DNA from: Thermoproteota archaeon
GTDB lineage: Archaea > Korarchaeota > Korarchaeia > Korarchaeales > Korarchaeaceae
DNA length: 64,000 nt
Direction of reading: 5' to 3'
Assembly (NCBI GenBank): GCA_027491785.1
Contig: JAOZGJ010000101.1
Span: 1-64,000, forward strand
Below are positions 9,867-43,134 of this stretch, in pieces; positions within the stretch are counted from its first letter, which is position 1; each line of letters opens with the position of its first letter. A program made the translations under genes and the position numbers. The notes below the pieces were generated by a model. That model was not told the origin of the DNA, did no database searches, and worked only from the letters and a program-made list of their open reading frames with translations.

Positions 9867-9986
9867 CGGGGCGTAGCTCAGCCTGGCAGAGCGGCCGGCT
9901 GTAGAGGGCGCCGGGTGGCGCTCCGTCAGCGGCCCGTTCTCACAGATACCGGCAGGCCGGGGGTTCAAGTCCCCCCGCCCCGACCA
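9867..9986 (+). tRNA. tRNA-Tyr(GUA) with 43-nt intron (9905-9947), encoded CCA
   Basis: Acceptor CGGGGCG/CGCCCCG (C1-G72, A73 archaeal Tyr identity), D stem GCTC/GAGC, anticodon stem GCCGG/CCGGC, T arm GGGGG-TTCAAGT-CCCCC, CCA 9984-9986; bulge-helix-bulge with central helix CTGT/ACAG and 3-nt bulges AGA and ATA at position 37/38. Confidence 0.95.
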
Positions 9987-40339: not shown

Positions 40340-40543
40340 TCAAACTAGCGTTCCTTCCCTTTCTCTTACCTTTAGCCTAGTTATGTATCCCGCTATCCTG
40401 TTTCTATACACCTTTGACTTTATTTCAGCTATCTGGGACAACATCCTTTTATTATACTCAAAATCTTCAGTCCATAGATCAGGATACTTCTTCACTAGCT
40501 TATAAGCGGTTCTCTTTATTATCTTCTCTCTAACGGTCCCCAT
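40340..40543 (-). CDS. rps17e: Ribosomal protein S17e
   Basis: MGTVREKIIKRTAYKLVKKYPDLWTEDFEYNKRML...RNRIAGYITRL. Confidence 0.85.
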   Translation of the reverse strand: MGTVREKIIKRTAYKLVKKYPDLWTEDFEYNKRMLSQIAEIKSKVYRNRIAGYITRLKVREREGTLV

Positions 40544-40736
40544 CGTAGATCTATATAGCAAGATACCTTCCTCTTTTAAATCTTTAGATAAGCATAAATG
40601 AGCTACAAATCGATTAGGTAGTCCCTCTAAAAGGTCAGCTAGTAAGCTTCTTCTACTTACCGATCTATCTAACATATCTATTTGGTAGTGTAAACGGACC
40701 GAAGAGATTATATTTGCGGCAAGTGTCGTATAACAG

Positions 40737-40820
40737 CCGCCCACCACTTAATGACCCCGTAGATAGAGAGGAAAGCGTGGGCTGATCAATGATCTACGGG
40801 GATTAGTTGGTGGGCGGACA
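40737..40820 (+). ncRNA. H/ACA-like guide sRNA candidate
   Basis: Lower stem CCGCCCACCA/TGGTGGGCGG, internal loop CTTAATGA/ATTAGT, upper stem CCCCGTAGAT/ATCTACGGGG, apical loop with TGATCAATGA, ACA directly 3' of the lower stem; TATA-like TTATATTT (40708-40715) about 26 nt upstream. Confidence 0.65.
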
Positions 40821-40845
40821 TTTCCAAAATAGGAGGATGATTAAT

Positions 40846-42048
40846 TTGGCTGATAATTTGAGGAAGGATGGTTTTCATCATAAATATATAGCCAAATTAG
40901 AGGTTATAGTTAATGGTGTAGTGGAAACAAGTGATGTGATAGGCGCTATCTTTGGCCAATTAGAGGGACTCTTAGGTCCAGAGTTGGAGCTTAAAGAACT
41001 TCAGAGGACAGGTAAGATCGGTAGAATAAATATTAGAATGAGGAGAGAGGGGGATAAATCTAGAGGTATTGTGGAGCTCTATTCGGGACTCGATAAGGTC
41101 AGGACAGCATTATTAGCGGCAGCCATGGAAACAGTAGACAAGGTTGGTCCTTATCCAGCTAAATTCAGGCTTATAAGGATATTAGATGATAGGGAAGAGA
41201 GAAGAAATGATATAGCGAAAAGGGCTGCTGAAATTCTAAGGAAGTGGTCTGTGGAGAGGGAAGATAGTTTTAGGAAATTAATAGAATTTGTTCAGAGGGA
41301 AAGCGCCAAGTCCAATTTCATACTCTATGGAGAGGAAGAATTACCAGCTACAAGGGGGATAGAAGATGCAGAGGAGATCATCGTAGTTGAGGGAAGGGCT
41401 GATGTAATAAATCTCCTAAAGTACGGATATGATAATGTCATAGCCATGGGAGGGGCTGTAGAGAAGGTTCCTAAGTCTTTGATTAAGCTGATCTCAGAGA
41501 AGGAGGCCATTGCTTTCGTAGATGGAGATAGAGGAGGAGAAATGGTTCTAAGAACACTACTGGAACAAACCGATATAGACTATGTAGCTAGAGCTCCTGA
41601 AGGAAAAGTTGTAGAGGAAATGACTGCTAAAGAGATAAGAAAGGCGTTATCATCTCTTATTCCAGCAGACGACGTCAGAAGGGAGTTGGGGATTTCCCCT
41701 CCCAAGGAAGAGAAGCCTTTAGCTATTCAGAAAGTAAGAACAACCGAGGAGGATGAGAAGCTATCTAGAATACCAGAGATGCTCAGGGAGTACTACTTGA
41801 TGGTTAAAGATACGGACAAGGTACTCTTAATGGATGACGACCTTCATATACTCAAGGAGATTTCGGTAGGAGATCTACTTAACGAACTTAATGACTCAAG
41901 AGGCGTGAGATACATAGTTTATGATAGGATAGTGACGCAGAGAATTGTAGATAAGGCATACGAAGTTGGAGTTAGAGCTATAGTGGGAGGAATTGCTAAG
42001 GATATAGTGAGAAGGCCCACTGGGATTTCTATCTATACAACCCAGTAG
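40846..42048 (+). CDS. dnaG: DnaG-type primase (Toprim)
   Basis: SDVIGAIFGQLEGLLG, IIVVEGRADVINLLKYGYDNVIAMGG, AFVDGDRGGE; TTG start placed 9 nt after SD GGAGG. Confidence 0.93.
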   Translation: MADNLRKDGFHHKYIAKLEVIVNGVVETSDVIGAIFGQLEGLLGPELELKELQRTGKIGRINIRMRREGDKSRGIVELYSGLDKVRTALLAAAMETVDKVGPYPAKFRLIRILDDREERRNDIAKRAAEILRKWSVEREDSFRKLIEFVQRESAKSNFILYGEEELPATRGIEDAEEIIVVEGRADVINLLKYGYDNVIAMGGAVEKVPKSLIKLISEKEAIAFVDGDRGGEMVLRTLLEQTDIDYVARAPEGKVVEEMTAKEIRKALSSLIPADDVRRELGISPPKEEKPLAIQKVRTTEEDEKLSRIPEMLREYYLMVKDTDKVLLMDDDLHILKEISVGDLLNELNDSRGVRYIVYDRIVTQRIVDKAYEVGVRAIVGGIAKDIVRRPTGISIYTTQ

Positions 42049-43134
42049 GTGCCATCATTGAGGATATTAGAACAAGATAGAAAAAAGGGATTCATTAGGC
42101 TCAGAATAGATACCTTGGATGATCTTTACTGGCTTCTATCGATCATAGAACCTGGAGACTTGATAACAATGAAAACTACCCGAAGAATCAAGCAAGATGG
42201 TATTAGAGCAGATAGTGGGGAGAGAGTTCCAATGACCTTAACGTTAGAGGTAGAGAAGGTAAAGATAGATCAATATTCTGAAAGACTCAGGGTAACAGGT
42301 ATCGTAAGAGTTGGACCTGAGAAGTTTGGAATTCAAGGGCAACATCATACTCTTAACGTAACGGAGGGCTCGATAATAAAGATTGAAAAGAAGAAATGGA
42401 ATAAGCTTCACTTAGATATACTGAAAAGAGCCGAAGAATATTCGAAAAAAGGAAATGTTATTTTAGTAGCGATGGACGACGAGGGAGCTACAGTAGCGAA
42501 GCTAAATGCCTATAGGGCTGAGGAAATTGCTTATGTTAGATCTAGCCTCCCGCCTAAGGGAGGCGACCCAAGAAGGAGAAGTGACTCTGAGAGGAGATAT
42601 TATAGCGATTTATATAGATTACTTGATGAATTAAATTCCAGAATAAATCCTGAAACTATAATAATTGGAGGACCTGGTTATACTAAGGATAAGTTTCTCT
42701 CCTATATAAAGGAGAAGAAATCCAGCATATTAGAGAAGATTAGATTAGGAGGAGCAAGCAATTCTACATTCTCCGGCATATTAGAGATGATAAAGAGGGG
42801 AGATATAGAGAAGGTAACGAAAGAATTCACCTTAGCTCGCGATATGAAATCTGTAGATAATATATTCGAGCTTCTAGCTAGGAGCTCTAGATTAGTTACT
42901 TATGGGCTTAAAGAGGTAAGCAAGGCTGTGGAATATGGTGCAGCAGAAGAAGTATTAGTAGTTAGCTCTCTCCTCTTTAATCCTAAGACTAGAGAGGAAG
43001 TCCTTTCTCTACTGGAAAAGTGCAATGAAACCAATGCCAAATTTCATATAATAGATGCGAAAAGCGAACCTGGAGAAAAATTAGCCTCCTTAGGAGGTAT
43101 AGCTGCTAAGTTAAGATATCAGATATCTGATTAG
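42049..43134 (+). CDS. pelA: mRNA surveillance protein pelota
   Basis: [37 protein letters not shown]. Confidence 0.93.

Follow-up and report, generated by a model that had tools for sequence, protein, structure and literature searches.

A probable H/ACA-type small RNA at the 5' end of the dnaG transcription unit in a heat-loving archaeal lineage

It is known that archaeal H/ACA RNAs obey a set of structural rules, i.e., a lower stem, a pocket, a GA stem of ~10 layers, a kink-turn, and an ACA at 14-16 nt (PMC4652768). GA stems of 8-11 layers have been reported, and the productive guides of Pyrococcus have 10 layers and an ACA spacing of 14-15 nt (PMC4652768). Targets or roles of archaeal H/ACA RNAs outside the ribosome are listed as unknown in a review (PMC7991803). 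Kink-turns also occur in mRNAs, as in the 5' UTR of l7ae, where one mediates the repression of this mRNA by L7Ae itself (PMC5539422). In archaea, DnaG belongs to the exosome, as an RNA-binding subunit of its cap (PMC4227792). The window analysed here is a stretch of 64,000 nucleotides from an archaeal draft genome (1.8 Mb, 114 contigs). It contains, at positions 40737-40820, a short structured RNA, previously without annotation, which in this heat-loving lineage is located at the start of dnaG in every member found, and whose fold is very probably of the archaeal H/ACA type. All the features described below are on the + strand of the window unless stated otherwise.

The RNA is flanked by the divergent gene rps17e (40340-40543, - strand) and by dnaG (40837-42048), followed by pelota (42049-43134) as the next gene of the dnaG unit. 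The assignments rest on NF002242 for S17e, on NCBIfam NF003108 for DnaG (392.5 bits versus a cut-off of 300), and on TIGR00111 for pelota (251.8 bits, above cut-off). S17e matches its family from residue 1, with a true start at 40543, and dnaG, preceded by a Shine-Dalgarno sequence GGAGG (40832-40836), starts at ATG 40837 or TTG 40846; hence, the open reading frame starts at 40747 and 40807, already distrusted in the reading made from the sequence alone (the sequence-only reading), are wrong. That reading had overlooked dnaG as the invariable 3' neighbour of the RNA: in every homolog examined, dnaG lies 3' of the RNA on the same strand, with 13-48 nt between the RNA and the start codon in most genera and ~120 nt in one of them (g2; genera are denoted g and families f). 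The neighbour on the opposite side varies, being the divergent rps17e in the window and, in other cases, a polyprenyl synthetase, a molybdopterin-binding-domain protein, or a TGS GTPase.

An archaeal promoter (40699-40715), formed by a BRE-like element CCGAAGAGA and a TATA box TTATATTT (40708-40715), is nearly invariant in the genus alignment. A promoter belonging to the hairpin itself had been proposed in the sequence-only reading, in agreement with the position of the TATA box, centred 25.5 nt before the hairpin, and with a TATA-like 8-mer that occurs in five genera, its centre at -24 to -28.5 relative to the first base of the hairpin, so that in these the stem would form the start of the RNA. 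The TATA box of f2 and f3 lies ~40 nt upstream of the hairpin, and the 5' end there would therefore differ from the hairpin base. In one g3 genome (L117, ~1464-1490), the TATA box TTTTTAAAT is embedded in an operator-like inverted repeat GCGAGGTC...GACCTCGC, degraded in the sister genome G017. In the window, the ACA is separated from the Shine-Dalgarno sequence by 11 nt, which would leave dnaG without room for a promoter of its own after the RNA; since, in addition, a TATA box precedes the hairpin, the RNA and dnaG very likely share one transcript.

The hairpin consists of a lower stem of 10 bp (40737-40746/40808-40817) and an upper (GA) stem of 10 bp (40755-40764/40792-40801), separated by a pocket with a 5' strand CTTAATGA (also given as CUUAAUGA; 40747-40754) and a 3' strand AUUAGU (ATTAGT in the DNA; 40802-40807), and is closed by a 27-nt apical loop (40765-40791). 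These coordinates, as first given in the sequence-only reading, agree with the sequence. The fold energy is -46.3 kcal/mol versus -24.3 +/- 3.0 for dinucleotide shuffles (z = -7.45), and none of 200 shuffles was as good. In a MAFFT alignment made without structural information, 97.4% of the cells pair and 12 to 13 of the 25 pairs display changes on both sides; this level of pairing was reached by no shuffle and was lost when the partner strand was slid. In an alignment of 25 sequences, made with a covariance model and leaning towards it, 96.5% of the cells are paired and 17/25 pairs show double changes (73 cells), a level equalled by 0/500 shuffles. Both-side changes affect 8/10 pairs of the lower stem and 7/10 of the upper one. 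Thus, the covariation in related genomes by which the sequence-only reading had proposed to check the stems is present. The pairs that might be formed across the pocket (UUAAU/AUUAG) occur in 60% of the cells, which is the shuffled level, with no double changes; since the pairing of the two strands does not exceed the shuffled expectation, the pocket is open, and the earlier caveat that the element might be a plain long hairpin did not hold.

The lower stem measures 9-10 bp across homologs, in keeping with the about 5-9 bp expected below the internal loop of H/ACA RNAs, and the pocket strands of 8 and 6 nt in the window fall within the ranges of the class (5-8 nt for the 5' strand and 5-6 nt for the 3' one). 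The upper stem, counted by eye on the alignment, has 10 layers in g2-g5 and f2, a mismatch or bulge included, and 11 (9 bp plus two) in the window's genus, which is within the reported 8-11 range and outside the strict productive rule of 10.

The apical loop contains a kink-turn. Its non-bulged strand (40765-40769) comprises A at position 1n, the C-stem GA (40766-40767), and a second tandem GA (40768-40769), whereas the bulged strand (40784-40792) comprises GA, the C-stem UC, the bulge AAU (40788-40790), and GA (40791-40792); position 2n corresponds to 40764, the last base of the 5' strand of the upper stem. The apical UGAUCAAUGA had been taken for a K-loop in the sequence-only reading; this had to be revised, in that CAAUGA forms the bulged strand of a kink-turn and UAGA (40764-40767) the strand opposite. 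The pair 40767-40786 covaries, being G-C, A-U, or G-U in every sequence, with nine double changes. RNAalifold places GG/YC near the apex; a better fit joins the lower-lying G and R of the 5' strand to that YC, and the second pair of the C-stem re-fitted in this way is G-C in 10, A-U in 9, and G-U in 4 distinct sequences. The bulge has the consensus NNU, with the U and the following GA invariant in 25/25 sequences. Position 2n is a G, completing a full tandem G-A, in g2, g3, and g4, and a U in the window's genus; the 2b-2n pair is U-A or A-A outside g2-g4. As judged from these bases, the motif is a textbook kink-turn, i.e., an NNU bulge, GA opposite UA or GA, a two-pair C-stem, and a second tandem GA. 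The sequence thus has the kink-turn expected of the H/ACA class, for which binding by L7Ae is predicted. Between the two strands lies a near-invariant apical domain (40770-40783, GGAA plus AGC-GUGG-GCU), with bulge and loop hardly changing; the cap reads GGAN-RGC-RUGG-GCY across the alignment, and its stem AGC/GCU shows a compensatory change from A-U to G-C in other genera.

The box ACA (40818-40820) directly follows the lower stem, exactly 16 nt past the upper stem, as the sequence-only reading had observed. It is ACA in 9/9 lineage representatives, among which conservation drops to background immediately 3' of it, and in 24/25 genomes, the remaining one (G016) having UCA. The spacing of 16 nt becomes 15 nt in genus g5 and is maintained in f2 despite a different lower-stem sequence, in both cases within the 14-16 nt from the upper stem allowed for an ACA (ANA) box. 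Altogether, the proposed H/ACA architecture (covarying stems, unpaired pocket, kink-turn, and ACA at 15-16 nt) is present and conserved, in accordance with the published rules (PMC4652768), from which the window's genus departs slightly twice, i.e., in its 11 layers and in its 16-nt spacing. In f2 (genome G024, L017 560-900), the H/ACA-like hairpin is enclosed by a perfect 10-bp outer stem, in which an extra 5' sequence GCGUCAGCCC can pair with GGGCUGACGC after the ACA, leaving the ACA in an internal loop; this could be a processing stem.

Concerning its distribution, a DNA search retrieved the element from all 16 genomes of the genus, from a second genus, and from another family. With the covariance model built on these 19 sequences, a single copy per genome was then detected in 25 of the 29 phylum genomes analysed, in seven genera (E-values from 2e-27 to 9e-8). 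The element occurs in each of the family's five genera, in a further family within the same order (f2), and in a family elsewhere in the class (f3); the carriers are uncultured, and their database entries are metagenome genomes labelled Thermoproteota or Crenarchaeota. Scores decrease from 113 to 42.5 bits, the weakest member being that of f3, whose own fold reaches only z -2.8. The model did not find the element in one g5 genome and in three genomes outside the class (f4, f5), the dnaG region of the latter containing nothing similar. The frame just 5' of dnaG in these three (L133, L134, L136) seems, by eye, to encode a small Toprim-like protein. A second, weak match in G020 (L122, 20.4 bits) was judged to be noise. 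In the dnaG regions of 28 other archaea, the same model gave nothing significant except for one HgcG-like match, described below.

The guide function implied by the sequence-only reading found no counterpart among the targets searched. Ten 23S and twelve 16S loci, the latter partial in several genomes, were scanned with strict, offset, and lenient pocket geometries, and no site exceeded the permuted-guide control; none was found among the 45 tRNAs of genome G010, and the candidate sites in 5S RNA, RNase P RNA, and the dnaG operon were weak and inconsistent between genomes. Hence, the conserved complementarity leaving UN in the pocket that would mark a guide for rRNA or tRNA pseudouridylation was not observed. 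A direct antisense interaction with 16S rRNA was also considered and discarded, as the lower-stem match to CCGCCCGUCAAC is lost where the stem changes. Pocket conservation is limited to AUGA (UUGA in one genus) on the 5' strand and to AYUAGU on the 3' strand (in g1-g4 and f2; AUUGUC or AUUGCU in g5); the other positions of the 5' strand vary freely inside the genus, which argues against a long duplex with rRNA. The element is an orphan RNA of the H/ACA type, which may be a guide for some other RNA or a dnaG leader acting in cis. Two side observations concern RNA genes: the 16S matches in G003, G016, and G018 (L129, L045, L130) all end at model position 828, which points to a single insertion or intron site or to contig breaks at that position, and a tRNA match in the window (9867-9983, +) covers 117 bases, suggesting an intron in the tRNA gene.

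According to the strongest rival reading, the RNA is a cis-acting leader of the dnaG mRNA, in which the binding of L7Ae/Cbf5 to the kink-turn, or to the H/ACA-like particle as a whole, controls dnaG translation or decay, with no need of guide activity. The position directly 5' of dnaG in every homolog next to a varying second neighbour, the proximity of the start codon in most genera, together with a Shine-Dalgarno sequence and too little space for a second promoter, and the negative outcome of the rRNA and tRNA search all speak for it, and the leader of the L7Ae mRNA is a precedent. Nevertheless, a leader would need neither an open pocket, nor an ACA at 15-16 nt, nor a hairpin at the transcription start, yet all of them are conserved; dnaG is distant in g2, and the linkage could be kept by the shared promoter alone. 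Moreover, the Shine-Dalgarno sequence of l7ae flanks the kink-turn bulge, so as to be masked, whereas here the two are 40 nt apart, the kink-turn ending at 40792 and the Shine-Dalgarno sequence beginning at 40832. This reading is thus rather unlikely, and we lean towards a small RNA co-transcribed with dnaG, as a simple kink-turn leader would have no use for the pocket or for the spacing of the ACA. It is possible, though less likely than not, that an H/ACA particle sits on the 5' leader of the dnaG mRNA in cis (or that the RNA serves both as leader and as small RNA), so that the amount of an exosome subunit made would depend on how much H/ACA protein is available.

The H/ACA likeness of another structured RNA (a reduced RNase P RNA, a riboswitch, or other) might be accidental. 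The apical GGGAGGAAAG..GGGCU bears a likeness to the first of the conserved regions in RNase P RNA, and a near-invariant apex is unusual in a pure guide; however, a normal RNase P RNA (full RF00373 matches) is present elsewhere in 8/10 genomes, so that the element is not the RNase P RNA of its genome, the RNase P-like apex is lost in other genera, and no Rfam riboswitch matched either the whole window or the isolated RNA, which makes an accidental likeness very unlikely. Short reading frames, one from the AUG of the pocket and one from a GGAGG-GUG in the apex, were rejected, their frames breaking between genera and the compensatory changes favouring an RNA. Finally, a plain long hairpin (terminator-like, or a DNA/mRNA stem) without the H/ACA fold, suggested by the pocket strands that can pair in the window sequence taken alone, is contradicted by the comparative data, as this pairing is not conserved, the apical domain and the ACA are conserved far beyond its needs, and the element lacks a U tract and is placed upstream of genes, beside a promoter; its probability is negligible.

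The element is probably best explained as a small RNA of the archaeal H/ACA type, ~84 nt long, with which the dnaG(-pelota) transcription unit begins at its 5' end, because two covarying stems round an open pocket, a kink-turn, an ACA at fixed spacing, and the constant linkage to dnaG emerge together from the comparison. Transcription would start with the first base of the lower stem or close to it; L7Ae would bind the kink-turn, and Cbf5 with Nop10 the lower stem and the ACA; the RNA might then be cut from the dnaG mRNA or be kept on it, and its pocket would present, for pseudouridylation, a uridine of an RNA outside rRNA and the tested tRNAs. Against this explanation count the negative search for rRNA and tRNA targets, the 11 layers together with the 16-nt spacing, the Rfam scores below cut-off, and the position of the TATA box in f2 and f3. 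In a little-studied archaeal phylum, the element represents an RNA family that is undescribed and strongly supported, and its constant joining to dnaG without a visible rRNA or tRNA target offers a testable case for archaeal H/ACA roles outside the ribosome. A role in cis would connect the modification machinery with the exosome, and an H/ACA RNA would then have been retained to control a gene instead of modifying rRNA.

As for known H/ACA RNAs, Rfam matched only 5S RNA and a tRNA on the whole window, with no HgcG. When the RNA was isolated, its best match was the archaeal H/ACA RNA Pab91 (RF02795), over the full length including the ACA, with 24.4 bits (E 0.005) and hence below the gathering cut-off of 71 bits; the cut-off of HgcG (RF00064) was likewise not reached. 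Conversely, in a Methanopyrus-like genome, the covariance model found, at 30.5 bits (E 1.3e-5), an H/ACA hairpin on which it had not been trained; this hairpin is the last one of an RNA labelled HgcG by Rfam, weakly and below cut-off. Neither match is proof, yet the two are independent and in agreement. The RNA in question (G037, L144 3943-4146, - strand) is an unannotated HgcG-like multi-hairpin H/ACA RNA, located ~90 nt before the gene gap, with dnaG beyond it on the same strand.

The single-hairpin H/ACA sRNAs of Pyrococcus (Pab91, RF02795, and Pab160/Pf9) share with the present RNA a lower stem of ~9-10 bp, the pocket, an upper stem of ~10 layers, a kink-turn or K-loop, and the ACA; they differ in their guide sequences, whereas here no rRNA target was found, the ACA lies at 15-16 rather than 14-15 nt, the apical domain is larger and near-invariant, and dnaG is always adjoined. 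The HgcG/Pab40 (RF00064)-like RNA of the Methanopyrus-like genome has, in the hairpin found by the model, the same GGGA/GACC extension of the kink-turn and the ACA, but it contains several hairpins and another pocket, and lies ~1.3 kb from dnaG, behind the gene gap. The 5' UTR of the l7ae mRNA (PMC5539422) similarly places a kink-turn between the promoter and the Shine-Dalgarno sequence of a gene of RNA metabolism; in l7ae, the kink-turn is a simple one and masks the Shine-Dalgarno sequence, whereas the dnaG-linked RNA has a full H/ACA-like fold, which ends 11 nt upstream of that sequence. Lastly, the H/ACA-like sRNAs sR201-sR210 of Pyrobaculum (PMC4652768) are alike in combining a kink-turn and a pocket in archaea outside the Euryarchaea; most of them are devoid of a lower stem, which in the dnaG-linked RNA is long and covarying.
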